DNA from: Psococerastis gibbosa
Lineage: Eukaryota > Arthropoda > Insecta > Psocodea > Psocidae
DNA length: 64,000 nucleotides
Assembly: GCA_963971405.1 (NCBI GenBank)
Contig: OZ020484.1
Span: forward strand, 41,252,770 to 41,316,769
Reading direction: 5' to 3'
Of this stretch, positions 6,078 to 57,309 are shown one piece after another. The translations under genes were made by a program, and so were the position numbers. The notes beneath the pieces are model-generated. The model saw only the letters and a list, made by a program, of their open reading frames with translations. It ran no database searches and was not told the origin of the DNA. Position 1 is the first letter of the stretch. Every line of letters starts with the position of its first letter.

Positions 6078-6529
6078 GGCGGGTATTCCACATACGTACA
6101 TCGTCAATGAAAATTATGAAATTGAAGGACATTTCAATTTTACTCTATGCCATTGTTAAAATTGATCAATGATCAATTGATCATAGAGTAAAATCACGAA
6201 CAAACAAACTAAAATTAAAAAATGACGTCATGGGATATGTCAAGTACAATTATTTTAATTGATTTTTTTTTAAAACAGTTTTCATCCATTAAACAGATCG
6301 GTGAAGGTCGATCTTACTTCGGATCTCCTACTATTATTAGGTTTTATCCAAAATAATAAGTGTACGAAGAAAACAAATGCAAACAAATTTCAAAAATTTG
6401 GCGCATACGTTTCAATAGAAAATTTCAATTTTTGAGAAAACATGTGGAATGGCCGCCATCAATGAAAAATTGAAATGTCCTTCAATTTCATAATTTTCAT
6501 TGACGATGTACGTATGTGGAATACCCGCC
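6078..6529 (+). mobile_element. palindromic MITE, single-layer type (GGCGGGTATTCCAC ends)
   Basis: 452 bp, with long inverted arms starting GGCGGGTATTCCACATACG and running through the ATTGAAGGACATTTCAATTT region. It is flanked by TTA on both sides, as in TWA-targeting PIF/Harbinger elements. The core includes a TGATCAATGATCAATTGATCA palindromic patch and an AAAAAATGACGTCATGGGAT segment shared with the composite MITEs. Non-coding. Confidence 0.85.
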
Positions 6530-6843: not shown

Positions 6844-6985
6844 GGTGCTTATTCCACCTACGCCAATAGTCAATAGTAAATGTGGTTTTGAAGTGGTAGC
6901 AGACATTAAAGACAGTCTAAAAATGTCTGCTACCACGTCAATACCGTATTTACTATTGACTATTGACGTAGGTGGAATAACCGCC
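6844..6985. mobile_element. short palindromic MITE (outer-layer arms only)
   Basis: 142 bp, nearly a full palindrome: GGTGCTTATTCCACC ... GGTGGAATAACCGCC, flanked by TTA and TAA. It contains GTGGTAGCAGACATT and its inverse, the same phrase that lies between the outer and inner ends of the composite MITEs. It therefore looks like a relative with no inner element. Confidence 0.8.
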
Positions 6986-9683: not shown

Positions 9684-10129
9684 AATTTGGGTGGTTTTAT
9701 CCTCAAAAAAACTCCAAAGTAACGTCTAAAAAATTTTTTTTCTCAAAAACAGCTCCAACTGTTTCTTTTAAATTCACATATACATATATCGTAGCTGTTA
9801 TTAATGTTAATAAACGGTTGCCCCTTGATAGTTTTCTTCTGGGGGTAAAAAAATAAAAATAACTCAATTTTCATGAAAAATTACTAAAACATCATTTTTC
9901 GCGGGACCTTTCTATCGATGATATCTATACCTTCAGGTATGTTTTAGGTATTCAATAGAGTAACAAAACCAAATAGCTTTTCAAAATTGCTTTCCCAAAA
10001 AAGTATTTGGTTCTGGGCAAAAAATTATTTTTTGAAGAAATATGGGCTTACGCCCATCGCCGTCATTGATGTATTGTCAGAAATTTATTTATTTTCTCTT
10101 AAATGTAGTTGTCAATTTTCTGGTCAATA

Positions 10130-10170
10130 CACAATTATTATTATTATTATTATTATAAAATAACAAGTTA
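10130..10170. repeat. (ATT)n microsatellite
   Basis: Eight ATT units followed by AT-rich sequence, inside the broken HINE-like repeat. Confidence 0.8.
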
Positions 10171-17693: not shown

Positions 17694-18460
17694 CCTCCAC
17701 ATACAAACATTTATCAAGAAGATGCTGCTTTAGTGTTCCTGACTTATGGCCTGTTCCTATATAACATCAGCTCGGTTATCTTCTGACTCCTGACTTAATA
17801 TTTCATTTCTTGCAATTCCTTAGCAGGCAGGAGGCATATATACACCAGTGAAAAAAACATTGGTAGAAAACTGGCAATATTTTTCTAACTAATCTTGCCC
17901 CTCCCCAAACAAACACCTTCTATTGTGATATTCCTCCTTACTCTGTTGAATGTTCTCGACGGAAATAACGGGGTGGAGCAGTACTTTGGGCAGGTGAGGT
18001 CGCTGACAAGAGCCCAACTAATGAGCCCGCTACCCTCCCCCCCCCCCACTTTACGTGACCTCACATCTCTAACACCCCCTCCCCGCCCCCTATTTCCTCC
18101 TTCTCCAGCAGACGCCTCATATCTTTTCTCATAATCTGGCATGTTCGTCTTAAAGCCCCGCGCTTTGTCCGACACAAAAGAACGTCAGCTGAGTCTGAGA
18201 TGTTTATTACTTTTTATTTTATGTGATGCTTTCAATTCCTTCCGAAGAATTCTACCGTCAGCTGAATTTCATGCTTTTTGTGGATTTAATACCACTTCAA
18301 GAGATCATATGACTTAAGTTCGGAAATTTCTGGCGTGGTAGGTAGACACACTATTGTCTGTAGCAGTTATCTGGACTGTTGTACTGCCCTGTTGGACTGG
18401 CCATTAGTATTACCTACCACGTCAGTTTATTCGATGAAATATCGAAAGAATAAAACTTTA

Positions 18461-19352
18461 TTGCTTTCCAATTTATACTTAGTATAAGGAAAGCTTTGTG
18501 CTGGTCAAAAGTTTCGATTCCACAATTTCAACGGATTTACACGTTTTGAGGTCCTAGGAGCCAAAAAAAGTGGTTTCCACGAAATTTCTGTATGTCGCTC
18601 TGCTCATCGATTTCCCGGCAAACTACTCAGTCGATTTTGATGAAACTTGTCATTTAGGGTCACAAAAATCATACCTCGGGATCAATTTTTATGTATTTTG
18701 GGCAAACTCAATCTTAGGGGGTTTTATTCTGCAAAACTAAAAAAAAAACGTCTTAAAAAAATTATTTCTCAAAAAAGGCTCCAACGATTTCTTTTAAATT
18801 CACATATCGCTCATGCACGAGAAAAGTGACACATTTCAAAAAATTACAAAATTGAGTTATTCATACAAAAATGTCGAGGAAAATATAGCGAATTTTATGA
18901 ATGTAGTGTCACATATCTAGTTTAATTTTTTTCCGTAAGATTGCGTTTTGTCACTGATCCATTGTCAAGTTTGACTACTTCGGGTTTGGCAATACTGACA
19001 TAATTCGGAATGTGCTCCAGGCGTTGACATGGTAATTACACTTCTCTTTCTAGTAAACTGTCATATCTCAAAAGTATTAAGTGCCTCGATAGTACTACAA
19101 GTAAAAACTAAAAAATGGTCAGAACTAAAATTTGATTTATCTCAAAAGTCAATATTTAGAAATGTGTCACTTTCCTCGTGCATGAGCGATATAGTGTAGT
19201 TGTTATTAATGTTTAAAAAAACGCATTGGGGTGCTTGCCCCTTGATAATTTGCTTATGGGGGTTAAAAAATAAAATAACTCAATTCTCTACCAATACTCT
19301 ACTAATTGATAAATTGGAAAGCATATTCGAGTAAACTCGGGCCGGTTCTCTT
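18461..19352 (+). mobile_element. HINE/Helentron-like repeat, interrupted by another element
   Basis: It starts at a TTGCTTTCCAATTTATAC palindrome (GCTTTCC...GGAAAGC) and ends at ATAAATTGG-like sequence with GGAAAGCATATTCGAG and CCGGTTCT. It shares the phrase AAAAAAGTGGTTTCCACGAA and the CTGCTCATCGATTTCC region with the other copies. Subterminal inverted repeats plus a short tandem core resemble Helentron-derived HINEs such as Drosophila DINE-1. An inverted-repeat element is inserted at 18808-19188. Confidence 0.6.
18808..19188. mobile_element. inverted-repeat MITE inserted in the HINE-like repeat
   Basis: 381 bp. Arms begin CGCTCATGCACGAG and its inverse and extend about 30 bp. It is flanked by ATAT on each side (18804-18807 and 19189-19192). 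Other copies of the host repeat read straight through this point, which fixes both borders. Confidence 0.85.
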
Positions 19353-23898: not shown

Positions 23899-24339
23899 GG
23901 CGGGTATTCCACATACGTACATCGTCAATGAAAATTATGAAATTGAAGGACATTTCAATTTTCCATTGATGGCGGCCATTACACATGTTTTTTTTCAAAA
24001 ATTGACAATTTTCTATTGAAACGTATGCGCCAAATTTTTGAAATTTATTTGCATTTGTTTCTTGAAATTGTATTTGTTTTCTTCGTCGCCTTATTATTTA
24101 AACCTTATTATAATTTTTATACAGAAATGCGTTCTTTTTAAAGAAATCAATTAAAATAGTTGTACTTGTCATATCCCATGACGCCATCTTTTAATTTTAG
24201 TTTGTTTCTTTCATTGTTTATGATTTTACTCTATGATCAATTGATCATTGATCAATTTTAACAATGGCATAGAGTAAAATTGAAATGTCCTTCAATTTCA
24301 TAATTTTCATTGACGATGTACGTATTTGGAATGGGCGCC
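23899..24339 (-). mobile_element. palindromic MITE, same family as 6078-6529, opposite orientation
   Basis: 441 bp, with the same arms (GGCGGGTATTCCAC at the left, TTTGGAATGGGCGCC at the right) and TTA on both flanks. The interior is the reverse complement of the copy at 6078-6529. Confidence 0.85.
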
Positions 24340-25017: not shown

Positions 25018-25651
25018 TGTGGTTTTCTGCGATAGCTCAGTACAATAAAATAAGTACCTAACTCACAACAGGGGCGTATCCTAATAAGCTAATAACTAAG
25101 AACTCCAAATTACGCTCCTGAAGGTTTAGGTACCTATGAAATGAGAGTGGACTGTATGAAAATAATTATGAATTGGTAAGAAAATAAGAGAATAAGCCTA
25201 CCGTACTCTGCTTACTCGGTGGTGAAGGTGTAGTACAGTAGGTAGACCTATTATAAAATGTAATGTATAGTGTGGTGCTGTAAAGTGTCTGGGTGTATGT
25301 GTTTTGAGTGAATAGGCTACGCTACTTATCTACTACCGGAGTCCGTGGCTTGCAAAGTATCCGCAGGAATCTCGGCAGGGGCGAGCACAATAAACACTGT
25401 TTAATATAAAGAATAATAACACAAACAAGAAAACACTACAACCACAACTATAATAAATTAATGTAAATAACAATAGGTATATAATTAAATAAATATACAA
25501 CCTATTGGAGCCGATACAATATTGAGACTGAATTCACTAACTGTAAAATGCGGGGATGAGTACTTGTGTACCTACCCGATTTAGGGTAAGGTACCTGCGA
25601 CAACAACCCGCAACTATATTTAGCTTGTGCAATGCGAGGCATTCACGGACA
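25018..25651 (-). repeat. 3' LTR of the BEL/Pao element
   Basis: 634 bp, same termini and apparently the same sequence as 30305-30938. It is preceded on the left by the target duplication GGTTG. The internal sequence abutting it (25652 onward, read on the - strand as GGCTGGCGGTA before the LTR) is only a weak candidate polypurine tract. Confidence 0.95.
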
Positions 25652-25890: not shown

Positions 25891-28800
25891 CTACTTTTGA
25901 AATGGCAGGGGCAAAAATTTGTTTACAGGGCCCAAATGCAGTTGTAAAATCCGTGAAAATACACGATGTAGTCTCATCGGAAAGCTAAACCGGACGACAA
26001 AACGTTTGTCGAAATCATTTTGCGGTGAAGACAACAATGTCATAGTCTTTTCCGCTTTTAAATTTGGTATATCATAACAAAACGGAGGTGTCTTGGGCCA
26101 TACGCTAGGTACTTGCAACAAAAGGGGAGGATCAGGCCACCGTTGCACATAGTTCAGCGGCTGTTCTGGGCCTAGACCTCGGGAAGCTGGATCAGCACCG
26201 TTAAATTGAGAGCCAATGAAACGCCAATCTTCAATTTTAGCTTTACTCAAAATAATTGGAATACAATTGGCCAAAAATAATTTCAGCTTAGTTACACCTA
26301 AGCGCAACCACGACAACACAATAGTGCTATCTGTGCAAAAATAGGTTCGCTGCATCGGTAATTCGTTAAGAAAATTCATACATCTGTATATATTAACGAG
26401 CAAATCAGCTGCCTGTAGCTCAGTTTTCGAGACTGTCAAGCGCGATTTGAATTTTGCGGGCATGGTTCTACCTTTTGCCCTCATCAGGGTCATAGTAGCG
26501 TGACCCTCATAAACACAACAAATATAAATGGCGACGCCATAGCCAGTAGACGAACTGTCTGAAAAGCAATATAGCTCAAGTTTTGGGCAACCAAAACAGT
26601 CTATTAGACGTGGAATACGTAGGCCTAATTCCTGTAAAAATGGAAGACCATCCATAAGAATTTGCCATTCTTTCCGCAAGTTTTCGTCGAAAACTGCATC
26701 CCAATCAATGCCAATTTCCCATAATTTGCAGAGAAAGTGTCTGGTTTTTCCAGTAAAAGTGGCAAGTAGTCCCATAATGTCATAACGACATGCAATAAAG
26801 CTTAGGACTCCGCGCTTGGTATATACATAATTAAACTCAGTGACTCGATACATAAAAATATCTTTCGCTGAAGTCCAAAATAGACCGAATACCTTAATTA
26901 CAGCCTTTTTGCCATGTAGATCAGTGTCTTCACATTGATCACGCGGTAGATTGAACAAAAGGCTGTGGTGTGAACTTCCAAATTTTTGGAGTTCAAAGCC
27001 ACCTTTGCGCAGCAAATCGTTGACAGCAAATCGGATTTCGTCATCGCTGCCGTCTAAACTGGTAATTAAATCTTCAACATATAGCTGAGTCAGCGAAATG
27101 TTGGTACCTCTTCGGAAATTAACGCTCTCGTCAGCAATGAACTGCTTTATAGTTCGCTGTGCTAAAAATGCACTAGGTGCCATGCTGAATAGCACACGAG
27201 TGAACTTAAGTTCCTCAGAACCACCATCAGGTGCAGGCCTCCACAAAATATGCTGATAACACCTATCAGCAGGAGCAATCACAACCTGATTGTACATTTT
27301 TCTAATGTCGGGTATCAAACCAACACTTCTTTCTTTGAAAGACAATAACTCATCGCAAATATCAGTTTGCAATGCTGGTCCCGTCAGCAATTGAGGATTC
27401 AGAGAGTTGCCATTCTTGTCGAGGCAACTGGCATTCATAACGGGCCGCAAACGAGTACAACTACTGGACCGTTTGATAACCGAATGATGAGGTAACATAT
27501 ACTTTGAAACGGTTCTAGCCTTTTCTAGAATACCGCTTTCAAGATAGTCAGCAAAAAAATTCCGATACAATTTAAATTTCTCGGGCTCCTTGCATAGCCC
27601 ACTTTCTAATGAAAGCAGACTCTTAAGGGGTGAAAAGTTATTTTTCACTAATGGGACAGCATTTGGCTTAAAGGGTAGTCGTACCTCATTTCTGCCGTCA
27701 GCTCTACATACTGTAGTTTGTGAGTAAATATCCTCAGCCAGCTGTTCATCAGCAGAAAGTGGTATGGACTTAGGACCTTCTCCAATCTCACATAACCGCT
27801 CAACATCCTCAGTTAAATCCTGGTCTACACTTAGACCTAAAAGTGACACGGAAGCTTCGTCAGCAGTCGTACTTCCCAGTAGCACGTAACCCAACTGAGT
27901 CCACTGCGCCGTTAGCCCACCCAACCTGAGTAGAGGCTTGGAATCGCTTAAAATAGAGGAGTAGACTCTGGCTCCCAGTAGAATGTCTACGTTAGCAGGT
28001 TTATAAAAAAGGGGATCAGCCAAGGCTATATCACCTAAATGGCCACTTATATCAGAAGTGACGGGTCGAGAAGGAAGATTCCCGCAGATTTGGGGAAGAA
28101 CCAAAGCCTCAATCTTTTGCTTAAAATGGGGATTAACAGTTGATTCAATGGTAAAGATAACCCTTCCTTTGGTCTTAGTTGTTCCGGCAATACCTCGAAT
28201 GAGAGTTTTGTCGTAAAACCGCTTGCAACCAAGTTGTGAAGCAGCCTTTTCTGTTATAAAACTAAGATGGCTTCCATTGTCAATTACAGTACGCATTGAA
28301 AACCCATGAATAGTGACTACAGCCGTAGCCAATAGAGCCTGTGGACCGGATGCCACCAATGCACTAGCTGGCTCCTCATAAGTTGTAGGAGTCTGGCGGT
28401 GCCCTAAAGAGGTACTATTGTTAGTAGGCCTTTGCTTTCGGTCCAAAGTAGAAGAACCGCCTTTGCGGCACAATAGACTATTGTGCTGATTATCTCCATC
28501 AGAGCAATTTCGACACAAAAATTCAACAGGGCATTCAGCGGCCGAATGCTGAGTGCTGTTGAGGCATTTTGCACACAATTTTATTTCTAAAGCTTTTTCC
28601 CATCGTTTGGGAACAGTCAGCTTCAAAAGTTGCTGACACCGGTATGCAGGATGGGACCCGTTGCAAACCGGGCATTTCTTGCTGATTGGACGCACTGCTT
28701 TACGAGCATTGGCAGAGTCCGCAGTGTCCACCAAAAGAGCTGATTTAGGCTTGAAAGTGCTTAGGCTAGCTTTCAAAGGTTTGGCTATAACCTTATCTAG

Positions 28801-29733
28801 GTCCGAAGCTTGTACCTTTGCCTGTAAAAATTTTATTAGGTCATGTACGTTGCATAACGCCTTAATATCTTTAAGTTGATGGTCAAATGCCCTACGGGTT
28901 TGAACATCAATTTTAGCGTAGAGCGCTTGAAAGAAGACAAATTCCGTTAAATCTGTAATTTGCATTTTATCTAATGCGCTAATTGAATTCCGATAAATCT
29001 GAATTAAATTGCTTAAATCAGAGCTGCTCCGCCCAGACGCAAGGGGAGAGCAATTGAGCATGTTGCTGACCATGGTCGATGCCTTAAGCCTTTTATTTTC
29101 AAAATGCGATTTTAAACAATTCAATGCCAAAGCGTAATTCGCATCGCATATTGGCAAGAACTCACTGATTAAGGCTTTGGCGTCATGCCCTAAGCTGCTT
29201 ATAAGGTAATGGAATTTAACGGTAGGTGTCCAAGACGCACTACTGTTGACTAAGCTGTCAAAAACTGCATACCACATGTCGAAATTGTGGCTTTCAAGAG
29301 TAGGGATTTCAATTGGCTTTAACAAGTTTGGGCCTAAGCCACAAACAGGGCCGGAACAGTTGGACACTGTTCCCTTATCCATGCCATCAATGGCCAAAAT
29401 CTGCACTTCATCACAAAGACAATAAAATTCCTCACGCTCCGCTTCAACCGATATGCGGCTGGAGGTGGAACTTCCGGAATTGATATCCATCAGTTCAGAC
29501 TCTATAGATTCGAATTGAGTGACCAATCCTTCAGCACGCTGAGATTTGATCTTTAGAGCTCCGGGCGTGAGAGATGTGGTGCATTTTAAATATGCTAAAA
29601 TTGACTTAACGTCATTAATAATCATTGACCGTTTGTCAAGCAAAATTTGTAGCCTACTACAATTAGACGCATCAGGGTCACTTCTAACGGTTCGCCTTCT
29701 TGTCGGTGCCATTTCCGCAATAAATGAACCCAC
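25891..29733 (-). CDS. BEL/Pao Gag-protease-RT-RNase H polyprotein, no integrase
   Basis: One open frame of 1280 codons without frameshift or stop. Residues about 20-340 are Gag-like. Cys/His knuckles follow at 354-366 (CPVCNGSHPAYRC), 387-401 and 407-422. The aspartic protease site is at 483-491 (VIDNGSHLS), with Asn where Ser or Thr is usual. The RT spans about 690-960: first catalytic Asp at 809 (LIPDIRKMYNQV), polymerase box YVED at 885-888, where the family has an Asp-Asp pair. RNase H carboxylates are all present: D1059 (FSDSSSTGYG), E1105, D1135 (CTDSTIVLSWL) and D1181 (ADPASRGL). The frame then ends after about 100 residues that show no integrase. The protein would copy RNA into DNA inside a Gag particle; whether this copy's RT is active is doubtful. 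The first Met is used as start; a second Met lies 7 codons on. Confidence 0.93.
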   Translation of the reverse strand: MGSFIAEMAPTRRRTVRSDPDASNCSRLQILLDKRSMIINDVKSILAYLKCTTSLTPGALKIKSQRAEGLVTQFESIESELMDINSGSSTSSRISVEAEREEFYCLCDEVQILAIDGMDKGTVSNCSGPVCGLGPNLLKPIEIPTLESHNFDMWYAVFDSLVNSSASWTPTVKFHYLISSLGHDAKALISEFLPICDANYALALNCLKSHFENKRLKASTMVSNMLNCSPLASGRSSSDLSNLIQIYRNSISALDKMQITDLTEFVFFQALYAKIDVQTRRAFDHQLKDIKALCNVHDLIKFLQAKVQASDLDKVIAKPLKASLSTFKPKSALLVDTADSANARKAVRPISKKCPVCNGSHPAYRCQQLLKLTVPKRWEKALEIKLCAKCLNSTQHSAAECPVEFLCRNCSDGDNQHNSLLCRKGGSSTLDRKQRPTNNSTSLGHRQTPTTYEEPASALVASGPQALLATAVVTIHGFSMRTVIDNGSHLSFITEKAASQLGCKRFYDKTLIRGIAGTTKTKGRVIFTIESTVNPHFKQKIEALVLPQICGNLPSRPVTSDISGHLGDIALADPLFYKPANVDILLGARVYSSILSDSKPLLRLGGLTAQWTQLGYVLLGSTTADEASVSLLGLSVDQDLTEDVERLCEIGEGPKSIPLSADEQLAEDIYSQTTVCRADGRNEVRLPFKPNAVPLVKNNFSPLKSLLSLESGLCKEPEKFKLYRNFFADYLESGILEKARTVSKYMLPHHSVIKRSSSCTRLRPVMNASCLDKNGNSLNPQLLTGPALQTDICDELLSFKERSVGLIPDIRKMYNQVVIAPADRCYQHILWRPAPDGGSEELKFTRVLFSMAPSAFLAQRTIKQFIADESVNFRRGTNISLTQLYVEDLITSLDGSDDEIRFAVNDLLRKGGFELQKFGSSHHSLLFNLPRDQCEDTDLHGKKAVIKVFGLFWTSAKDIFMYRVTEFNYVYTKRGVLSFIACRYDIMGLLATFTGKTRHFLCKLWEIGIDWDAVFDENLRKEWQILMDGLPFLQELGLRIPRLIDCFGCPKLELYCFSDSSSTGYGVAIYICCVYEGHATMTLMRAKGRTMPAKFKSRLTVSKTELQAADLLVNIYRCMNFLNELPMQRTYFCTDSTIVLSWLRLGVTKLKLFLANCIPIILSKAKIEDWRFIGSQFNGADPASRGLGPEQPLNYVQRWPDPPLLLQVPSVWPKTPPFCYDIPNLKAEKTMTLLSSPQNDFDKRFVVRFSFPMRLHRVFSRILQLHLGPVNKFLPLPFQK

Positions 29734-30304: not shown

Positions 30305-30938
30305 TGTGGTTTTCTGCGATAGCTCAGTACAATAAAATAAGTACCTAACTCACAACAGGGGCGTATCCTAATAAGCTAATAACTAAGAACTCCAAATTAC
30401 GCTCCTGAAGGTTTAGGTACCTATGAAATGAGAGTGGACTGTATGAAAATAATTATGAATTGGTAAGAAAATAAGAGAATAAGCCTACCGTACTCTGCTT
30501 ACTCGGTGGTGAAGGTGTAGTACAGTAGGTAGACCTATTATAAAATGTAATGTATAGTGTGGTGCTGTAAAGTGTCTGGGTGTATGTGTTTTGAGTGAAT
30601 AGGCTACGCTACTTATCTACTACCGGAGTCCGTGGCTTGCAAAGTATCCGCAGGAATCTCGGCAGGGGCGAGCACAATAAACACTGTTTAATATAAAGAA
30701 TAATAACACAAACAAGAAAACACTACAACCACAACTATAATAAATTAATGTAAATAACAATAGGTATATAATTAAATAAATATACAACCTATTGGAGCCG
30801 ATACAATATTGAGACTGAATTCACTAACTGTAAAATGCGGGGATGAGTACTTGTGTACCTACCCGATTTAGGGTAAGGTACCTGCGACAACAACCCGCAA
30901 CTATATTTAGCTTGTGCAATGCGAGGCATTCACGGACA
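30305..30938 (-). repeat. 5' LTR of the BEL/Pao element
   Basis: 634 bp, TGT...ACA termini on the + strand. It is identical by eye to the copy at 25018-25651. Because the element is on the - strand, this right-hand copy is the 5' LTR and would hold the promoter. Its right edge abuts the target duplication GGTTG. Confidence 0.95.
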
Positions 30939-37189: not shown

Positions 37190-37316
37190 GAGCGTCCGAA
37201 AGATTCTAAATGAGCGAAATTAGAGGATATGGAAAAACTGGGCTTGGTGGGATTCGAACCCACGATCTACGCCTAACCGGGGCGTCGTCTTAACCCCTGG
37301 ACTACAAGCCCCGACA
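37190..37316 (-). mobile_element. tRNA-derived SINE, family B head
   Basis: The - strand head GGGGCTTGTAGTCCAGGGG ... GTGGGTTCGAATCCCACC can form acceptor (GGGCTT/AAGCCC), anticodon (ACGCC/GGCGT) and T arms. The loop is CCGGTTA, lacking U33. It continues into CAGTTTTTCCATATCCTC, the family B body. Confidence 0.65.
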
Positions 37317-37378
37317 AGTCCAGTAATCGCCAAATCCTCTACTTATGCTCAAATTGACATGATTCGTGTTGCTAGACG

Positions 37379-38583: not shown

Positions 38584-38970
38584 GGCGCGGTTTCCACCGA
38601 CCTCTAAGAGCAAAATACACATACGGTGGCGTAGTAGCAGACATTCAAGACTTAGGCGGAGTTTCCAAAGACCTCTCATTGCAGAATGCACATGACATTG
38701 ACGGAAATTTGAATTTTTCTTTTAATAGAAATCTATTAAAATGTTTGTACTTAACATATCCCATCACGCCATTTTTTAATTTAATTTTGTTTGTTTGTGA
38801 TTTTACTCTATGATCATTGATCAATGTTAACTATTTAACACAATAATTTCAGTTAATGTCATTTGCATTCTGCAATGAGAGGTCGGTGGATACCCCGCCT
38901 TTATTAATGATATCTGCTACCACGTCACCGTATGTGTATTTTGCACTTAGAGGTCGGTGGAAACCGCGCC
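38584..38970. mobile_element. composite nested palindromic MITE, variant with GGCGCGG outer ends
   Basis: 387 bp. Outer ends are GGCGCGGTTTCCACCGACC and its inverse. A second pair of ends (GGCGGAGTTTCCAAAG ... GGATACCCCGCC) lies inside at about 38655-38899 around the shared core. The left flank is TTA and the right flank ATA. Confidence 0.8.
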
Positions 38971-46320: not shown

Positions 46321-46704
46321 GGCGCCCATTCCATTGACCGGCTAGGGCTATTTTCAACAACGGTGACGTGGTAGCAGACATTCAAGACTTAGGTAGCGTT
46401 TCCACCGACCTCGCATTGCAGAATGCAAATGACATTGACAGAAATTAGAATTTTTCTTTTTATAGAAATCTATTAAAATGTTTGTACTTAACATATCCCA
46501 TGACGCCATTTTTTAATATTAGTTTGTTTGTTTGTGATTTTACTGTGTGATCATTGATCAATTTTAACTATGGCATAGAGGAAAATAAACATTTCCGTCA
46601 ATTCTGCAATGCGAGGTCGGTGGAAACGCCACCTAAGTCTTGAATGTCTGCTACCACGTCACCGTTGTTGGAAATAGCCCTAGCCGGTCAATGGAATGGG
46701 CACC
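46321..46704. mobile_element. composite nested palindromic MITE (upstream of cpo exon)
   Basis: 384 bp. Outer ends GGCGCCCATTCCATTGACC and its inverse; inner ends GGTAGCGTTTCCACCGACC and its inverse at about 46392-46633. The inner element sits at the centre of the outer palindrome (CAAGACTTA | TAAGTCTTG). Flanks TTA/TAA. The core runs in the opposite direction to the copies at 55710 and 56936. Confidence 0.85.
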
Positions 46705-47802
46705 TAACCACAACACCAAGTGTCCGTCTTGTCCACACCTGGCTTGATCCTCTATATGCTCATGGACAAGATTAGAATATTCTGAGCCTCAGAATCACGA
46801 GAAATCTATTATCATTATTGCCAACAACCTTACTAAGTTTAATCCACCAGAACAGAGCCTGTTCAAAACTGTTGACTTGGTAGAGCGCATAGTGTTATCA
46901 GGGGAACATGGTGAGACATGATATCGTGCTGAGACTGCCAGTCAGCCTAAGTGCATTTCGACTACTGGTCACCACCGAATTAATCATGTAACTTTACTAT
47001 GTTCCCCAAGTAGTTGCGGGCGTTGGCTAGTAAGTAAGTAAGTAGTATGTTCCCCAAGTATTTCGGAATCAAGAGGTCTGCCCCTAGGGTGTCTCAAGTT
47101 AATAAACAGACTGACTCCTGACTCCTTAAAGCAGAAATGGTGAAAGCAGGTGTTGGAAAAATAAGTAAACAAATTATCAGTACTGAATGCCATGTGATCT
47201 GGCGCCCCAGACTTTATCATCTACTGGGGTGCGCTGTTGTTAATGGTGGTTGGGCTCTAATAGTCCAACCTGCTGCCATAGCGAGATTCACAAAAGCAAT
47301 AGAACTCGACTAGTACAACTAGGGGACCTATGGGCCCCAATTGTGGCCTTATTACTGAAGATATGGAAGTCGTAAAAGCGAAACCACGCATATGAGAATA
47401 TTCAATATGTTATAATTCACCAATAATAAACTGCAATGCATTTAACGGGAGATCCGAATCACTGAGGGAAAACAATTGTAGCCCAGGTTCGAACCCTCCT
47501 ACTGTTGATTTAATCCTGCAGACTACTTCTTATTTGTAAACAGAAATGGTATTAATTTATTTTTATAACCTGCAGGGCTGGAGCTAGGTTGATATAATTT
47601 GAAAAATACATTACTTTCCTTATTTCTTTCATTATTTCTGCTCAGCCAATAGGCTCTCATTTATTTACTGCATTATTATTGCAACGTGTACAGAGCCAAT
47701 CAGATCAGTTCAATTTATTTTTGTTCACCACTTATGGTTCGGCTCTTTTATCGGTCGTAATAAATCTTCAAAACTAACATGAGTTTAATTGTTTTTGTAC
47801 AG

Positions 47803-47880
47803 GTGCGGACTCTGTTTGTGAGTGGGCTGCCGATGGACGCAAAACCAAGAGAATTGTATCTCTTGTTCCGAGCATATGAG
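47803..47880 (+). CDS. cpo: couch potato/RBPMS-family RNA-binding protein, internal exon (RRM start)
   Basis: This 78-nt exon encodes 26 residues, beginning [18 protein letters not shown] and continuing through LYLLFRAYE. That is the first beta strand, RNP2-like segment (LFVSGLP) and first helix of the single RRM of the couch potato / RBPMS family. Proteins of this family bind RNA as dimers through this RRM and act in post-transcriptional control. The acceptor is a T-rich tract ending TTTTTGTACAG at 47802 and the donor is GTGAGT at 47881. Both ends are phase 0, because the next exon resumes at a codon boundary with the expected family residues. The preceding exon, with the N-terminus and start codon, was not found upstream. 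The intron before it therefore reaches at least to the window edge unless a short unrecognised exon lies there. The family call rests on recognised protein sequence; the symbol is the arthropod name. Confidence 0.93.
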
Positions 47881-48629
47881 GTGAGTCTACCATGCATTTC
47901 CAATAACTATTTGCATCGACACACAGATCAGTGTTTAAGAAACAATGTGTAGCCATATCTGAAAAGAGCATTATCCTCAGCCAGAGCCTGGGTGATAAGC
48001 TAGCATTTATTTTTTTTGTACTGGACGTGAAATGAAAGCTGCTCATTTGTTACGATTGTTAAAAATTGAAACTGTTTACATTTTTAATCCAAGGTAAGGG
48101 TTGCAAATAAACGCCATTATACATATTATACAAAATTATTATTATGTTTATATTTGTACAGGTACAGTTACAGTTTACAAAAGATGAAAAAAATATATAT
48201 AAAACATGGGAATCGAAGTGCGGTTTCATTCTGTTTCATTCCAGTACAAAAAAAAAAACAGAAACAAAAAGAACCATAAAAAAATATAACTTAAACTACT
48301 AGCATTAACCTTATTATAAGGCTTATACGAGCCTTATTTGTTAAATGCAGAATTCACCATTTGCCTAGTATGCGCTTTGAAAGTTTTAATAGATGTATAG
48401 AAATAAGGTAACTACCGAAAATTGGTTGTCAACTCGCAAAAACGGTACAGTGGTAATGCTTTCTCATTTTCTTTGGTAATAGTGGGCATATATAGTAAAT
48501 ATCTATTCCTATGGGCTCTAGAAATATCATCTTTGCCTGCTATCAGTATTTCTGCTTCTTGCTTAAAGTAGAAATTCTGAAAACTTTGGAAACAACAACA
48601 GAAATATCAAAATAATAATACAGGTACCG

Positions 48630-48700
48630 TACTATATATATATATACAGTACATACCTATATATATATGTATGTAAATATATGTACCGTATATATTGATT
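48630..48700. repeat. (TA)n tract
   Basis: TATATATATATACAGTACAT and TATATATATGTATGTAAATA, simple repeats in the first visible cpo intron. Confidence 0.7.
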
Positions 48701-50774
48701 GATCTACCCCTGAAATTTTGACCCCGTATTTTCACTGTGCTGGTTGGATTTCTCAATGTCAAACTACCCTACTTCATTGTTAGCTCCATTAAATCCGTCA
48801 AAAAATAATAAAGAAGAAATAAAAATACTGTAGTCCTATGACATTATGAGTATTCATTGTGACGCTTCGGAACAAAGGAGGAAATTAAAAATTCAACATC
48901 CCATTAAAGAGGTTTCAAAGTTTGAACATAAGGTAAGCTTTTGTAAAAAAAAAAAAAAAGCAAAAACTTTTAAAAGGCTGTGTTGGTTTGCTTAGTGGAG
49001 CTGCTACATGGAAAGTTGTTTCTTTGCCCCCTACCCCACCACCCCCCCCCCCCCCCCCCATCCCCTTACGTTTTGAAAGCAGGATAAAACGAACATCATT
49101 TTTTAATAAAGTGAATTTCATCTATGCAATGTCCAATACAGATAGAAAAGAGACCAATTTTCCACCAATGGGATGGGTTAGAAAGGGGGGAATTTTTTTA
49201 TGAATCGTACAAAGAGAGCTATATTTGAAGCTGTCTCCTATACATGCACGCTGAGGCTGCATATTATTGTAATACTTTTGAATACTTTTGGCATTTACCA
49301 GTTGAAAGCAGATAAATTAACTAATATTTTAAAAAATAATTAATCCGTGTATTTTTTAGAAATGTTACTCTTTGTATTTCATAAATGAGGCAATTTATAA
49401 CCATTTTTTTTTAAATGTTAATCGCATGCAAACAATTAAATGAATCTATCCAATTGATCTCTTCAGTCGCCTCTGTAGGTTAGTACCAGTGTTGAGCTAC
49501 GATACGTCTCCGATCCCAAGGCGTGTAAAGACTCGCACAAGTAAAAGCACGCTACCACCTTGATATCGAGGTCGGTTATTTGATTAATGTAGCCTACTAT
49601 GCCGATTATTGTTAACAAGATGATTTTGCAGTGAATAGTGCTATTCAAAACTGCGTTTTTTACATTTTTAACCCCATGAGTAAGTTGATCCTAATCGCCA
49701 TAGTTGGCCCCCTGCCCCTTAACAAGCGGGATAGCTACTAACATGTATGCCAACTTAAAACTGATTCATTTCCTTCTCTAATGCTTTCAAAGAAAATGTA
49801 TAATAAACACTTGTGCATTGCATTATAATACATTACACTATTACAGAAATATAACCTAAATTTTTCAACTGCTCTGGGCTATACGGTAACTCTTTTGGTA
49901 TCATATACCCAATCCCCTCCTATCGTCCCTGTACCTTGTTGGGTACGGGAAATAACGAAAGTTGACGGCTCAAAATGCTAAGAGATAGCAAAAACGAAAG
50001 AGATGCTTTCTGGGAATACCAAGTCAAGTGGGATGCAAGTACCTGGAAAATTCTATGCGTTCGGAAAGTGGAGTCTGGAAATTGCAGCTTACTGGAAAAA
50101 GTGAGGATTTAAATTTCGTTTCGGTGGATTTCGCTTTCTTGTGCTTGCGATCAGAGTACACATTTTTCGTTTGCTTGTTTTCTGGATAAGCTTGTGTGTT
50201 CTGCGACGAACTTTTTCACACTTGCGGTGCAAAAGTCTAAAAATAACAGGATTATCTACAGCTGCCACGTTTTCTTCTTATAATGCTTGGGATTATGGCT
50301 GATTTGGCTAGAGAAGTACGGTACCTCCTCAATTCCTGCGGAGGTGGTGAGATTACTTATGACTCGAACTTTAAACCTTCATGCTATACAGTAAACAGAT
50401 ATTGTGAAATTTTAATCAAGTAGAATTTAATTGATTTCATTGGGGATGATTTAGGATAATTTACTCTCGATATTAAGTTATTCTTTTGAGTTAGGGGTAC
50501 GTCTGCAAATCCACAAAATTCCTCGAAACATACACTTTTGTTAAAAAAGAATATAATTATAATTTATTAATACTTTTATAGCAGTTTTATACCAATATTA
50601 GAGATTATCTACTTACATCATTAATACATAACATATAATATTATGTTTGCAAAAAACTGTGATATGTGAAGCAAACGGTTTCGGTCCTGGGTCTTCTTGT
50701 GATGGTGATTGCCCTTACTCTACTGAGGCTCAGTACTAGAACAACGAGAGTCATTATATAGAGTATTGAGGTCC

Positions 50775-50850
50775 AAAATCAAATATCGTCTTATTGTTCG
50801 CCATTTGTATTGCAATAAAGTCGTTATTTATTCATTCATTCATTCATCGT
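50775..50850 (+). mobile_element. LINE 3' tail fragment
   Basis: It ends GCAATAAAGTCGTTATTTAT followed by (ATTC)n and matches the reverse complement of 9465-9530. Short tandem (ATTC)n tails are typical of CR1/L2-type LINEs. Confidence 0.6.
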
Positions 50851-51511
50851 CTATTAATGGATCCAGTGGGTTCTAAATAGATAAATATGACATTTTCCAG
50901 AAAAATACGAATTTTTTATCAGTTACACCGTGCAAAATGACCCAAATTCGAATCAACCGAACAAAATATTCGTGTAACATATCTTTTAAACCCCTCTCCC
51001 TCCCCATTACATCCATATTGCTGCCGATTTAGGATGCAAACGCGAACATTTACATACATAACACGAAAAGCAAAAAACTTAAATTTCGTCGTCATGGCAT
51101 ATAGCTATTTATCAAATTAGTACACCCGGATAGGTACTTAACAGTCAAGTTAAATTTGTTGGCGAAGTCAAGTGGCAGATTGATGACCTAAAAATGAAGT
51201 AGCTAAGGTTGACTCATGAATACTAATTGAGCAAAGTTATGCTAAGTTACGTTAGTGCCGAAATTAATTTGATTCTCTTCGTCTCAATGTTCCCCTGATT
51301 CGATTACCATTGTGTCATTTGCATTTTCTATCTGTTTTCGACTTTGCTTTCTTGGTGAGAAACATTATTCTAACTTGCGTCTACAGATATTTTACTAAAA
51401 TTCACGACTCAAGTTAATATTAAGATGTAAGCAACTACAGAGATGTCAGCTAATCAGGGTGGCCGAAGTCTGAGTGCTTTTCTTAATTTTCACCAGTGGG
51501 CCGATTATGAC

Positions 51512-51679
51512 CAAGGACGGATACAGGGGGGGGGTATGGGGGTAGCTGCCCCCCCCCAATTTGGTAAATCTATTGTAAATTAATTTATTACGCTCTGATT
51601 TAATCGATCCTACATGTGTTTTTCCTATTTTGACCCACAACTACCCCCCCCCCCCCCAAATGGGCTGGATCCGTCCCTG
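51512..51679. mobile_element. hAT-like MITE with G/C tracts
   Basis: 168 bp. The ends are CAAGGACGGATACAG and CTGGATCCGTCCCTG, flanked by ATTATGAC and ATTATGGC (51504-51511 and 51680-51687), an 8-bp duplication with one mismatch. G and C runs lie near both ends. It appears to split the left arm of another palindromic repeat whose right arm is near 51815-51835. Confidence 0.75.
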
Positions 51680-52053
51680 ATTATGGCGATTGGTATAAAC
51701 TTACTCCTGGGGTTAAAACTGTACACAAACAAATTTTGAATAGCGCTTTCCATTGTAAAATTGTCTTGTTTACATTTTTAATACCATGGTATTATATTAA
51801 CCCCGGTATTAAAATCGCCATGACCAGGCCGCTGGATGAGAAATTTGAGTGCTCAGTTAATAGAAATATATTGTTGTCTGTAAAATCAACTGGCTCTAGT
51901 ATATTATCATATTTATTCTATTCTAATGTACATACATGCAAACATACATGACGCATATCGCGTCAAGTTCTTTATTAGCCTATGTATGCGTGCTAAACGT
52001 GGTCAGCTCATGATGTAGCTCAGACTATGCGGCGTTAATGCATTTTGACGCAT

Positions 52054-52654
52054 TTTTGCTTTCCAATTTATACGTAGTATATGGAAAGCTTTGTGATGGT
52101 CGAAATTTTCGATTCCGAGGTCCCAGGAACCCAAAAAAGGGGTTTTTACGAAATGTCTGTCTGTCTGTCGGTCTGTCTGTTCATCGATTTCCGGGTAAAC
52201 TACTCGGTGGATTTGGGTGGAATTTGGCGTGTAGGTTCACAAAATTCCTGCCTCGGGACAATTTTTTTTATTTTGGGGCTAACTGAATTTTGGGGGGTTT
52301 TATTCTCAAAAAACTCCAAAAAAAACGTCTAAAAAAATTATTTCTCAAAAACGGCTCCAACGATTTCTTCTAAATTCTCATATATGGTATAGTCGTTATT
52401 AATGTTGATTGGTCGCTTGCCCCTTGATAGTTTGCTTCTGGGGGTAAAACAATAATAATAACTGCATTTTAATGAAAAATGACTAAAAAAGAATTTATCT
52501 CACTTTCAGTGACGTCATGTGGACAACCCCCCCCCCCTGAGATTTCGGAAATTTTACCACTGGAAAATTATTTACCATGAAATTACTCATATTCTCTATC
52601 TACTAATGATGATAAATTGGAAAGCATGTTCGGGTAAACTCGGACCGGTTCTTT
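52054..52654 (+). mobile_element. HINE/Helentron-like repeat
   Basis: About 600 bp. It starts at a GCTTTCCAATTTATACG palindrome and contains a GTCTGTCTGTCGGTCTGT tract, a C8 run near 52527, and a right end with GGAAAGCATGTTCGGGTAAA and GGACCGGTTCTTTT. Subterminal GCTTTCCAATTTAT / ATAAATTGGAAAGC repeats pair the two ends. Confidence 0.65.
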
Positions 52655-52708
52655 TAAAAGTAATCTACGAAACAACAAATTACCAAGCATGCATGTCGGG
52701 AAAAACTG

Positions 52709-52842
52709 CATGGACACCGCTGGTTGGACAAACTAGAAATGGACCTCCGTGAGTAAGGAGTCCATAGATGGTGGAGCGTCGTACAAAACTGAGATGATTG
52801 TAACAGTATTATTGAGCGGGCCAAAGTCCATCAAGAGCTGTA
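52709..52842 (+). pseudogene. decayed LINE ORF end
   Basis: It translates as HGHRWLDKLEMDLRE, stop, GVHRWWSVVQN, stop, DDCNSIIERAKVHQEL and a final stop. It aligns with 4372-4520 (DLRELGARRWWNVVKNRDDW...EQSKAHQGL) with two in-frame stops. Confidence 0.7.
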
Positions 52843-53204
52843 GAGCCAGAAAAACAACATCTGCAAGTGCATATTAAATTGCAATAGAAATTAGTTTTAT
52901 AACAGATGATCCGCAAAAATTAACGTTGGCCACCTTCCTCAATTTCACTGTCTAATAATGAACTAAAGATCTCACACCTTTCTCATCTCACTTATATATC
53001 TGGTAACTTCAATGCGCCAAAGAACTTGGCAAACTTCGATAAGTGACTACTTTAATCTAAGCTTTTTGCAAGACTTAGGACTGCTGAGAACTGGGGCTTA
53101 TTTTCACGCGACTCATTTGGCTAGGATATACATACTGTATATATACCCGTATAACTCATTATATTATATTATATTATAGCCTATATGGAGAGTATATATA
53201 TATA

Positions 53205-53362
53205 TAAAACACTGACTTTTTTAAATTAGCTTTGGCTGAAGAGGCAACCACCACGTTATAACTGAAATTAGAGGATAGATAAAAACTGGACTTGCGGGAT
53301 TCGAACCCACGATCTACGCCTAGCCGGGGCGTCATCATAACCGCTCGACTACAAGCCCGCAC
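53205..53362 (-). mobile_element. tRNA-derived SINE, family B
   Basis: On the - strand a tRNA-like head (GGGCTTGTAGTCGAGCGG ... GTGGGTTCGAATCCCGC) is followed by CAGTTTTTATCTATCCTC, TAATTTCAGTTATAAC and GGTTGCCTCTTCAGCC. The head can fold as a cloverleaf, but the anticodon loop reads CCGGCTA with C where U33 belongs. It is attached to a SINE body, so it is not a working tRNA gene. Confidence 0.75.
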
Positions 53363-53413
53363 AAGCACAGTTGACACGTATAACTCCTTTAATAATTACT
53401 TAATTCGTTTCAG

Positions 53414-53530
53414 GGTTATGAAGGATCGTTGCTCAAAGTAACAAGCAAGAATGGAAAAACAGCCTCGCCAGTCGGTTTCGTCACATTTAACACAAGAGCG
53501 GGCGCTGAAGCTGCTAAACAGGATCTCCAG
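53414..53530 (+). CDS. cpo: couch potato/RBPMS-family protein, second visible exon (RRM core)
   Basis: This 117-nt exon encodes 39 residues, beginning [15 protein letters not shown] and containing [21 protein letters not shown]. The segment GFVTF is the RNP1 strand of the RRM, the most conserved RNA-contacting strand, and the following helix carries the AEAAKQDLQ signature of the family. The acceptor is TTTCAG at 53408-53413 and the donor is GTACTG at 53531. Phase is 0 at both ends, so it joins the exon at 47803-47880 without a frame change (...FRAYE|GYEGSLL...). The intron between them is 5,533 bp and holds LINE, SINE, hAT and HINE copies. The exon length is divisible by three, so skipping it would keep frame but remove RNP1. 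Confidence 0.94.
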
Positions 53531-53734
53531 GTACTGTACCTGTTTTCATATTTATTCAAATTATGGGGAACCTCATACATTACATTAAATTAATTATCGT
53601 TCTAAATTATTTTGAACCAGGTCAATTTGGATATTCTGGCTAATTAGTAAACTAAATGGATTCATTACCAATTGTCACAAATTTTTAGTACCAGCAGTAT
53701 TCTCGTAAGTTTTAAATGAAAGTTCTTTTATAAT

Positions 53735-53800
53735 TATATATAATATATATATATAATATATTAATTATATAATTATATATATAATAATATATTTAAAAAT
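53735..53800. repeat. AT-rich palindromic tract
   Basis: Alternating ATATAATATATATAT and ATTATATAATTATAT, able to fold on itself, in the cpo intron about 200 bp after the second exon. Confidence 0.7.
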
Positions 53801-54530
53801 AAAATATAAAAGCCACACTAATAATAAATAAATACCGCTCTTAAATTTTATGAGATGGGGTTTCCTTTGACTGAGCCTTTTCATATAGTATAAGGATCAT
53901 TTATAATGAAAGGAAGGTCAGTGATTCCGGGGGGAATACGAGAGACTTGCTGAAAAACAGTGTTGATTCAGCGAAAACAGCCCTTATCTGGCGATATTTA
54001 CCTAAAAATTGAAGGAAAATCTTGTAATACCTTGTTTGCCGACATTACTGCAATTTTCTTTTCAACGTGTCTGATTGCTGACTCCCAAATTTTCAACCGT
54101 AATTGTACCTCGCTGAATACTACTACCACTATAATTTTAGAATTTCATTTTCTTATTATGTGAGACTGCTCACCTCATTCCCCAATAATGATAAATTGCA
54201 TTAGGTATTCTACTACGAAATTGGCATTTTCATTTGTTTTTTTTTTTAATTATTTGAAATAACTTTATTGCAAATGGGTAAGATACACGTCTATTTAACA
54301 AAGAGTTAGTTAGACTTACATTGTCTGCTGTGTTAATAGTGATGAATTGTATTTATAGGAGGCAAAGTAAGTCCAACTAACCCTATGTTAAATTGTATTA
54401 CACCATTGTCTTTACCTTTACAAATAGATTAAGATACATCTCCCTAAGGTAATTTAAATACCTAGCTGTGCATGCCTCTCTTACGACAAAGATTTCAAAA
54501 TATTTTGTAAACAGATAAGAGACAAATGTT

Positions 54531-55357
54531 TTTGCTTTCCAATTTATACGTAGTATAAGGAAAGCTTTGTGATGGTCGAAATTTTCGATTCCGAGATTTC
54601 AACGGATTTACAAGTTTTCAGGTCCCAGGAACCCAAAAAAGTGGTTTTTACGAAATGTCTGTCTGTTTGTCGCTCTTTCGCTCTGTCTGTCGCTCTGTCT
54701 GTCTGTGCGTCGATTTCCGGGCAAACTACTCGGTCGATTTTCTTTTTCTTTTTATTTTGGGCTAACTCAATTTGGGGCGGTTTGATTCTCAAAAAACTCA
54801 TAAAAAAGTCTAAAAAAATTATTTCCCAAAAACGGCTGCAACGATTTCTTTTCAATTCACATATATTGTGGTCGTTATTAATGTTGACAAAATTCGGGGG
54901 CTCGCTTGCCCCTTGGTTGTTTGCTTCTGGTGGTAAAAAAAATAAAAATAACTAAATTTTAATGAACAATGACTAAAAAATAATTTTTCTGTAAAACCTT
55001 TCCAACGATGATTTCTACCTTCAGGCATGTTTTGGGTGTTAAATTGAGTAACGAAACCGGACAGGTTGCTTTCCCAAAAAATTATTTGGTTTTGTGCAAA
55101 AAAAAAATGTTTTTGAAAAAATGATAGAAAATTCACAGTCAAATGCCATAATTGCTGTGTGGTAATTTGTTGGTCTGACCTATCTAGAATTTAACTCACC
55201 TCCAGTGACGTCAGGTGGACAACCCCCCCCCCCCCCCCCCCGAGATGCCCGAAATTTAGCTATAGGCAAATTATTTACCATGAAATTACTCATTTTCTCT
55301 ATAGCTACTACTTGATAAATTGGAAAGCATGTTCGAGTAAACTCGGACCGGTTCTTT
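54531..55357 (+). mobile_element. HINE/Helentron-like repeat, longest uninterrupted copy
   Basis: 827 bp, with both subterminal inverted repeats, a GTCTGTCTGTTTGTCGCTCT-type microsatellite near 54656-54712, a C18 run near 55221 and the terminal phrase GGACCGGTTCTTT. It defines the family for the other copies. Confidence 0.7.
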
Positions 55358-55709
55358 AATAAACCCTCCACGGTCGCAAACATGCAAAATTAGTCTTTAC
55401 CGGAAAGCAGTGTATTTGTCTGACAGCTACTCTGACTGGTCTGCAAAATCGGTATAATGCACTTAATCACATTTTTAGAGCAATTATATTGCCTAATGAT
55501 AAAAATGTAAATTTGTTGCAAACTCTAGTATTTCATATCATTCTTTCATAAATCAATTTTCAATTCTTTGCAGATGTGAAACGATGAATTCATTAATTTT
55601 GTCAATATTACCAGTCTCAAATTGTTTCCAAATTATTTTTAAAATATTTTTAAATTGCTGCTAAGCAGTATTTATTGTTTCAGCATTTTTTTAATTACCT
55701 ATGAGATAA

Positions 55710-56090
55710 GGTGCACATTCCATTGACCGGCTAGGGCTATTTCCAAAAACGGTGACGTGGTAGCAGACATTCAAGACTTAGGTGGCGTTTCCACCGACCT
55801 CGCATTGCTGAATTGACGGAAATGTTTATTTTCCTCCAAGCCATAGTTAAAATTAATCAATGATCATACAGTAAAATCACAAACAAACTAAAATTAAAAA
55901 ATGGCGTCATGGGATATGTTAAGAAACAACCTTTTTATTAGATTTCTATAAAAAGAAAAATTCTAATTTCCGTCAATGTCATTTGCATTCTGCAATGCGA
56001 GGTCGGTGGAAACGCAACCTAAGTCTTGAATGTCTGCTACCACGTCGCTCTTTTTGGAGATAGCCCTAGCCGGTCGGTGGAATGGGCGCC
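55710..56090. mobile_element. composite nested palindromic MITE (in cpo intron)
   Basis: 381 bp. Outer ends GGTGCACATTCCATTGACC and GGTCGGTGGAATGGGCGCC; inner ends at about 55781-56019 (GGTGGCGTTTCCACC and inverse) at the palindrome centre, between CAAGACTTA and TAAGTCTTG. The core is in the same direction as the copy at 56936 and reverse to that at 46321. Confidence 0.85.
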
Positions 56091-56935
56091 TTAAGAAAGT
56101 ACTTACGGCTGATGAAACGCTGTATATTAAGTCATTAGTATGATAACCGCCCTTGCCCTGAACCTGTACATATTTAATAATGAATGGAAATCTAGACTTG
56201 TATTGCGCGACATATTAGCCTAGTATTCTAGTTGGGATTACTTAAATCTCTGTTTAATCCCTTTATTAAGTTTAAGCTTCTTGTCGAAGCGTTAAGCTTT
56301 GCATCCGGATTTCTGTGAGCTGCTTACAACAGACCCAAGTCTCTTTAAACTACTTTTTCTCCACTTTCGTTCCTACTTACAAATCTATGCGAATTTTCTA
56401 ATACGATACCTATCTATTACCCGAAACCCGAAAGAACCTATTTATGGATTCGTTGCTTTGTCGGAAAAAAGCTTGCATGTGCCTCATCCGGTTTGTAGGC
56501 ACTTTCCTACCAAAATGAAAAACATTTATGTATGTAAGAATGCATTCTTATCTTTCAGCTGTTGATAAATAAGTTTACGCCTTGTTTACCCATAACGTAA
56601 GGAACGTTCTATTGGGGAACCTAAAAAACACAGAACGGCTGAGGCTACTGCTGTACTACTGTTTGCCTAGGCATTGAATAGACCGAAACACTTTATTTGC
56701 TCCAATACTACTAAAAGCTTGCATTAGTAAAATCGAAAAAACTCGGTGTTTCGTTCTGTTCAATACTTGGTCCAACAGTAGGGTACCTAATACTTACTAC
56801 AGTGGCGTACAAATAAAGTATTTTTGCGGGGTCAAGACCAGATCGCATATAGCTATCACATACTATCCGACCACGATGGCACTTGGAACACTTATAGAAA
56901 TGGAATAAACTCGGTGTTCCGCTTAGGTGCCAATT

Positions 56936-57309
56936 CCATTGACCGGCTAGGGCTATTTCCAAAAATGGTGACGTGGTAGCAGACATTCAAGACTTAGGTG
57001 GCGTTTCCACCGACCTCGCATTGCAGAATTGACAAAAATGTTTATTTTCCTCTATGCCATAGTTAAAATTGATCAATGATCCTACAGTAAAATCACAAAC
57101 AAACAAACTAAAATTAAAAAATGGCGTCATGGGATATGTTAAGTACAAACATTTTAATAGATTTCTATAAAAAGAAAAATTCTAATTTCCGTCAATGTCA
57201 TTTGCATTCTGCAATGCGAGGTCGGTGGAAACTCAACATAAGTCTTGAATGTCTGCTACCACGTCACTGTTTTTGGAAATAGCCCTAGCCGGTCAATGGA
57301 ATGGGCGCC
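56936..57309. mobile_element. composite nested palindromic MITE (in cpo intron)
   Basis: 374 bp. Outer ends GGTGCCAATTCCATTGACC and its inverse, flanked by TTA on both sides; inner ends at about 56997-57238. Same layout as 55710-56090, 845 bp away, in the same direction. Confidence 0.85.

Follow-up and report, generated by a model that had tools for sequence, protein, structure and literature searches.

The window analysed here is a 64,000-nucleotide (nt) stretch of the genome of Psococerastis gibbosa (assembly GCA_963971405.1, contig OZ020484.1, positions 41,252,770 to 41,316,769), which carries a family of miniature inverted-repeat transposable elements (MITEs) with GG(C/T)G...TTCCA ends. 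Four composite palindromes were found in it, at 38584-38970, 46321-46704, 55710-56090 and 56926-57309. In each of them a 71-nt outer arm lies on either side of a complete inner element that has GG(C/T)G...TTCCA-type ends of its own. The composites and their relatives in the window are:

46321..46391, + strand: left outer arm of composite 1, 71 nt, terminating in CAAGACTTA
46392..46633, + strand: inner element of composite 1, with its own GGTAGCG...CGCCACC ends and an AT-rich core
46634..46704, + strand: right outer arm of composite 1 (locus L001), 71 nt, starting with TAAGTCTTG; flanks TTA on the left, TAA on the right
55710..55780, + strand: left outer arm of composite 2, 71 nt
55781..56019, + strand: inner element of composite 2
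56020..56090, + strand: right outer arm of composite 2; flanks TAA on the left, TTA on the right
56926..56996, + strand: left outer arm of composite 3, 71 nt
56997..57238, + strand: inner element of composite 3
57239..57309, + strand: right outer arm of composite 3; flanks TTA on the left, TTA on the right
38584..38654, + strand: left outer arm of composite 4, 71 nt, whose outermost 45 nt differ (GGCGCGGTTTCCACCGACCTCTAAG...)
38655..38899, + strand: inner element of composite 4
38900..38970, + strand: right outer arm of composite 4, with the asymmetrical centre half TTTATTAATGATATC
6844..6985, + strand: hairpin with nothing inside, carrying the GTGGTAGCAGACATT layer
6078..6529, + strand: single-layer element with different ends; the inner elements of the composites have a related core
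23899..24339, + strand: single-layer element, 6078-like, with an end exchanged on one side: the last 13 nt on the right belong to the 46321 type

A first-pass annotation of the window had described nested palindromes with similar ends on both layers, the outer one being split exactly in the middle by the inner element, and its ends and coordinates are confirmed apart from single corrections. It had listed five patterns that share these ends at TTA/TAA. The elements starting at 6078, 6844, 38584, 46321, 55710 and 56926 indeed all begin with GG(C/T)G and carry a similar inverse at the other end, and their flanks are TTA or TAA, with the exception of ATA on the right side of 38584. Of the pair that it placed at 55710 and 56936, the first start is correct but the second is ten bases late, as the element begins at 56926. 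The split at the exact centre, between CAAGACTTA and TAAGTCTTG, is found at 46321, 55710 and 56926, but the composite at 38584 is split between CAAGACTTA and TTTATTAATGA, making its outer palindrome asymmetrical at the centre. The right arm of this composite gave no match to the arm motif, its 71 nt being taken from the coordinates, and its right junction was found at 11 other places in the genome with GTC replacing ATC. The core thought to be common to the single-layer copies is related in 6078-6529, but the ends of that element differ. The hairpin at 6844-6985, described as an empty outer layer, shares the GTGGTAGCAGACATT layer with the 46321 type and differs from it in the outermost sequence and the centre. 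The copy at 23899-24339 is additional to the earlier list.

The complementary arms extend over 107 nt at 46321 (97%), 107 nt at 55710 (91%) and 105 nt at 56926 (93%). Single-strand folding of 46321-46704 yields -142 kcal/mol compared with a mean of -38 for 100 shuffled sequences (z -26.8), and that of 6844-6985 yields -54 compared with -11 for 200 shuffles (z -15.5). As the folding of both elements far exceeds that of shuffled sequence, an origin of the window palindromes by chance is excluded. Elements with matching ends measure 131-452 nt and have long complementary arms, and none of the five open reading frames (ORFs) of at least 120 aa in the window lies inside them. Being short, non-coding, bounded by terminal inverted repeats and high in copy number, they are MITEs.

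The searched genome comprises 409 Mb in 68 contigs. Exact ends TWAGGYGNNNNTTCCA occur 28,407 + 28,421 = 56,828 times, compared with 38 + 52 = 90 for the reversed control, and the outer-layer word TGGTAGCAGACATT occurs 13,471 + 13,668 times (control 3 + 3). The arms that contain an outer/inner junction number 5,874 + 5,998 = 11,872 (reversed control 0), and since there are two per composite, the composites number roughly 6,000 or more. The search for empty outer elements that the annotation had proposed revealed empty hairpins of the same layer at 2,458 places genome-wide (control 0). For the composite, 40 copies were scored of 1,970 first-look candidates, and all 40 are 98-100% identical.

The junctions were collected with a pattern in which the outer word and the TAGG of the inner end could be 2-30 bases apart. 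Among 100 junctions listed of the 11,872 (first 4.6 Mb of contig C1), 87 are letter-identical through the junction GTAGCAGACATTCAAGACTTAGG, the remaining 13 have one substitution or a one-base deletion each, and no second junction position occurs in spite of the permitted gap. In addition, among 100 end matches listed, all 22 pairs of ends less than 150 bases apart are spaced exactly 71 bases. The outer flank in these 22 pairs is TAA in 12 and TTA in 10, whereas the inner junction is TAA in 1 and TTA in 21. Therefore, every jump gives the composite new outer flanks, whereas the inner ones are frozen. Symmetrical outer elements without an insert gave no exact match genome-wide with a gap of 0-4 and none with up to three mismatches around TTAA, and no empty hairpin of the GCTAGGGCTAT outer type was found with a centre of at most 30 bases. 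Because the listed junctions coincide to within a base, we infer that a single old insertion founded the nest, which then multiplied as a unit. The spread as a unit had been suggested before and is supported by the identity of the 40 scored copies and by the 71-base spacing. The suggestion of repeated insertion at hairpin centres is not borne out by the one junction position among the 100 listed. Layers always found together had been named as an outcome that would speak against nesting; as far as searched they do occur together for this outer type, but not for the hairpin layer.

To define the target, empty sites were sought by searches with joined flanks, and copies were found for three insertions. 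One is a higher-order nest of the kind the annotation had proposed to look for, L057, in which a composite lies off-centre within the core of another composite; its flanks are TAA/TAA, and the best empty match has TAA at 91% identity. The other two insertions, L062 and L022, are both flanked by TAA/TTA, and their empty-site copies lie within the window:

49407..49554, - strand: empty-site copy for the composite L062 insertion, 80% identity to the filled repeat, 3-bp target TAA
16890..17006, - strand: empty-site copy for the hairpin L022 insertion, 85% identity to the filled repeat, 3-bp target TTA

The target is thus 3 bp at all three empty sites, and a 4-bp non-duplicated target would need one extra base at each. 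TWA (TTA or TAA) is present on both sides in 38 of the 47 elements counted, in agreement with the target predicted earlier. The surrounding bias is roughly symmetrical, with C or T before and G or T after the triplet and T-rich then A-rich sequence; C precedes the triplet in 22/47 and G follows it in 16/47. TTAA, which had also been proposed, is not the target, given the 3-bp empty sites and the off-centre position of L057. Since the three empty sites fit a 3-bp target, the founding nest presumably had CAAGAC-TWA-GTCTTG or a near relative at its centre, and not TTAA.

Other duplication types were tried and rejected. Kolobok and piggyBac elements duplicate TTAA, and Tc1/mariner elements (Stowaway) duplicate a 2-bp TA. 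A TTAA duplication agrees neither with the flanks nor with the 3-bp empty sites, and a TA duplication is ruled out, as TAA and TTA both occur directly before the GG of the element and the empty sites are 3 bp. The 2-bp AT duplication within AATT of ISL2EU does not fit either, because the flanks are mostly TWA and the empty sites 3 bp.

The two flanking triplets of a copy often disagree. We compared 28 young composites taken from the scored copies, 98.4-100% identical to the 46321 copy, and six older ones with 90-96% identity, 34 of this outer type in total. The 23 young composites with TWA on both sides comprise TTA/TTA (6), TAA/TAA (6), TAA/TTA (6) and TTA/TAA (5), so the middle base differs in 11 of 23 (95% interval 27-69%; Fisher p 1.0 for association of the sides). 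Against an assumed background of 4%, such a count has a probability of 3.6e-10. Similar fractions were found for all 34 composites (13/28 with TWA on both sides; Fisher p 1.0) and for all 47 elements (16/38; Fisher p 0.51). Identical 3-bp duplications, as expected of PIF/Harbinger elements, are lacking in 16 of 38 elements with TWA on both sides and in nearly half of such young composites. The first-pass annotation had seen the mixed TTA/TAA ends but left the mismatch unquestioned. Seven pairings of mixed elements or layers were dropped from the flank counts (L002 1076-1884, L002 1147-1813, L005 225-455, L020 211-1030, L023 1745-2067, L059 152-393 and window 38655-38970), as was L025, treated as one and the same nested site as L026, on the opposite strand; L002 1076-1459 was added, and the hybrids L086 and L087 described below are outside the counts.

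As the young copies are only 1-2% diverged, the mismatch is not due to ageing, and the mismatched middle base is likely the trace of a donor flank carried over. In the mismatched L062 the empty site has TAA and the right flank TTA, and in the mismatched L022 the empty site has TTA and the left flank TAA. The five young composites without TWA on both sides have TCA/TTA, ATA/ATA, ATA/TAA, TAT/CAA and TAT/TAT. The matched ATA/ATA and TAT/TAT fit the donor model, because pairing with a TWA overhang would fail at such targets, but two cases are no proof, and ATA/TAA and TAT/CAA are mixed.

Our best guess for the mover of the family is a PIF/Harbinger-like transposase, since the TWA target and the GG ends fit. 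Terminal inverted repeats of PIF/Harbinger usually start with G or A according to the available part of one report (PMC4482050), and the GG start of the elements matches this rule, the search pattern itself having required GG. Matches to the transposase domain PF13359 were scored for 150 of 220 candidates, several of which have long open frames and are near-identical to each other; the ORF in L024 contains both PF13359 (DDE_Tnp_4) and PF13613 (HTH_Tnp_4). Loose matches to the end motif beside the gene form an unrelated inverted pair in L074, L075, L079 and L084 and occur once in L076, and in L081 the end of a MITE-family member lies to one side of the PF13359 gene. Other inverted repeats are 52 bp and perfect in L081, 164 bp with 80% identity in L080, 33 bp with 94% in L084 and 43 bp with 81% in L075. 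In 20 transposase-bearing copies (L024-L043) a MITE-family member is found downstream of the gene at the same place and travels with another transposon; its end lies at position 2574 in forward-lying copies and at 931 in reverse-lying ones, and it measures 151 bp in L025 and L026. The 151-bp element was rejected as the end of an autonomous element with the L024-type transposase, as it is within a longer conserved stretch, and L044 was unusable as its empty site because the sequence diverges after CTTTA.

We consider it probable that the palindromes belong to an abundant MITE family moved by a PIF/Harbinger-like transposase, in which one founding central nest spread as a unit and flanks were carried along from the donor. 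The transposase would recognise the GG(C/T)G...TTCCA ends and insert at TWA. Once, long ago, an inner element would have entered the palindrome of another family member at its central TWA, after which the outer ends would have mobilised the whole composite and multiplied it to its present number. On excision, three flanking bases of the donor site would remain on the element as a 5' overhang and be joined to the overhang of the target. Within the overhangs, T and A would pair but W might be mismatched, and each side would be settled separately by repair or replication. The middle base on each side would then stem randomly from donor or target, which would explain the mismatched duplications; random donors predict about 37-50% middle-base mismatch. 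The structure is real and striking but mostly ordinary, one nested MITE turned successful family, and the duplication mismatch is its unusual part. As for donor-overhang heteroduplex insertions that routinely leave mosaic duplications, with triplets partly recording the origin of a copy and layers gained or lost through usable ends and arm copying, we judge this proposal to have an even chance of being right.

Several observations weigh against the explanation by a founding nest, a PIF/Harbinger-like transposase and donor carry-over. In the 42 loci read (L024-L053; L074-L085, 5-kb regions), GG(C/T)G...TTCCA ends never surround the transposase gene, but many copies extend beyond the stretch read. 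As the exact symmetrical empty outer element was not found, the hairpin before the insertion had to be inferred from related copies. The closest empty one among these, GTAGCAGACATTCAAGACTTATTAATGATGTCTGCTAC, listed at one place, gives the 38584-type junction inexactly, with an extra T. The junction pattern is blind to TAA junctions since TAGG was required. The identities of the empty sites are only 80%, 85% and 91%, so that a one-base indel is not wholly excludable. In addition, the composites are the best matches and not a random sample, and 5/28 young composites and 6/34 overall are without TWA on both sides.

A central position of the inner element would also be expected if the transposase preferred the centres of its own hairpins, such as the tip of an extruded cruciform, and nests kept recurring, as the first-pass annotation proposed. 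The roughly symmetrical target preference, which a palindrome with a central TWA suits, and the presence of the same kind of inner element in several outer types are consistent with such self-insertion. However, the single junction position among the 100 listed despite the 2-30-base gap, the lack of exact symmetrical empty outers, the 2,458 hairpins with nothing inside and the recent, off-centre nest L057 all argue against it, and we find it rather improbable. For the mismatched duplications, ectopic gene conversion between copies might replace transposition as the cause, as the T-W-A flanks extend the homology three bases beyond the element and W can be overwritten. The arms being alike within copies and unlike between types, some conversion or template switching is probably active. 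However, the tracts would have to end 1-2 bases outside W, on either flank, in near half of the very young copies, which makes conversion an unlikely source of the mismatch. The independence of the two middle bases would be explained without further assumption if the element ended in A...T and inserted bluntly into TWWA with no duplication, the W bases being neighbouring target bases. This alternative was attractive from the flanks alone but was dropped after the empty sites, since L057, L062 and L022 are all one base too short, which refutes it there if no indel happened; we regard it as very improbable.

The ends of the elements also vary between copies. Inner ends matching a 34-base pattern are preceded by the junction C in 7,532 cases and lack it in 206. 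Four of the 206 were read, among which no inner-only copy was found: L086 and L087 are hybrids with an inner end on the left and an outer end on the right (flanks TAA/TAA and TAA/TTA), L088 is a composite with a slightly altered junction, and L089 is rearranged, with one outer arm largely deleted. The two hybrids need not come from mixed-end transposition: one outer arm could have been deleted between the outer and the inner end, which are direct repeats, an alternative that is limited to the hybrids and compatible with the founding nest. On the left, the outer end is followed 71 bases further on by a similar inner end in the same orientation, and the largely deleted arm of L089 points the same way. 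Nothing decisive speaks against deletion, as the clean TWA flanks of L086 and L087 are expected by either route, and the two routes fit about equally well.

The outermost 45 nt of the left and right arms within a copy show a median identity of 0.93 (range 0.82-1.00; 16 chosen elements), compared with 0.56 (range 0.40-0.84; 144 arm comparisons) between nine chosen types. Since the arms are alike within a copy and unlike between types, an alteration of one arm is somehow passed on to the opposite arm. The element at 23899-24339 looks like a half-finished arm change, as the last 13 nt on its right side belong to the 46321 type and the remainder to the 6078 type. The arms of one copy may be rewritten together, one being copied from the other, for which template switching within the palindrome would suffice. 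A composite would offer a MITE a simple route to change its ends yet retain its core.

The mPing element of rice, like the present family, has ends that start with GG, and it is not known to be a nested double palindrome. As far as the available mPing texts describe it, the present family resembles it in being Tourist-like, short and non-coding, with a 3-bp TTA/TAA target. The same texts describe free transposition with an intact target-site duplication, whereas 11/23 young insertions are mismatched here. For mPing and its Ping/Pong transposase, which is of the PIF/Harbinger type, 5' staggered cleavage of the duplication was proposed from yeast assays (PMC4561436, available portion), and donor-derived TTA/TAA was reported for mPing at Cas9-targeted insertion sites in plants (PMC11254759, available portion). 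NuwaII of the PHIS superfamily likewise has ends mostly starting with GG and a 3-bp TNA target, in some cases with C before and G after, in the accessible text of PMC4482050. Its C-TNA-G target was tried and rejected as a rule for the present elements, in which C and G (22/47 and 16/47) are a bias only. The KolobokP composite-like transposons share the composite plan, their flanking units having their own inverted ends (PMC9587614, as far as accessible); there, long direct repeats surround a coding region, whereas here inverted arms surround a non-coding inner element. The Anopheles composite P-MITE AgaP2-P12MITE has two ends from two subfamilies in the available part of its description (PMC1562414), similar to 23899-24339, L086 and L087, but it is a P element relative with 8-bp duplications.

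Among the titles and abstract openings listed by searches of open-licence papers, none reports donor-base mosaic duplications or centre-nested MITEs, which is weak evidence of absence. If the independence of the middle bases holds genome-wide, searches requiring identical duplications would overlook a large share of the true copies in such families; one PIF/Harbinger survey permitted zero mismatch in the duplication, according to its available text (PMC2213677). Natural insertions would in that case provide population-scale evidence on how the donor overhang is handled by PIF/Harbinger-type transposases.

Family members also lie close to one another. The L002 composites 1076-1459 and 1501-1884 are 41 bp apart, and in L008, L010 and L013 the ends of other family members abut the elements; insertion beside older copies may be common. 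In L014 and L015, the hairpin together with the same left flank occurs three times within one 3-kb stretch, spaced by about 416 and 584 bp, the hairpin being caught in a local duplication.

Elsewhere in the window, a Pao-type retrotransposon ORF (Peptidase_A17, DUF1759) is located at 25891-29733 between 300-bp direct repeats (25018-25317 and 30305-30604), and as these are 100% identical, the insertion is probably recent. The program ARAGORN detected tRNA-Thr(ggt) in 37234-37324 and tRNA-Ala(ggc) in 53281-53371, which are 91-nt repeats, 82% alike, and could derive from tRNAs without being tRNA genes. A dispersed repeat of about 1 kb that includes AACCCAAAAAAGTGGTTTTTACGAAATGTCTGTC, among repeat families D6-D16, has partial copies at about 9282-10626, 18446-19350, 52053-52653 and 54517-55356.

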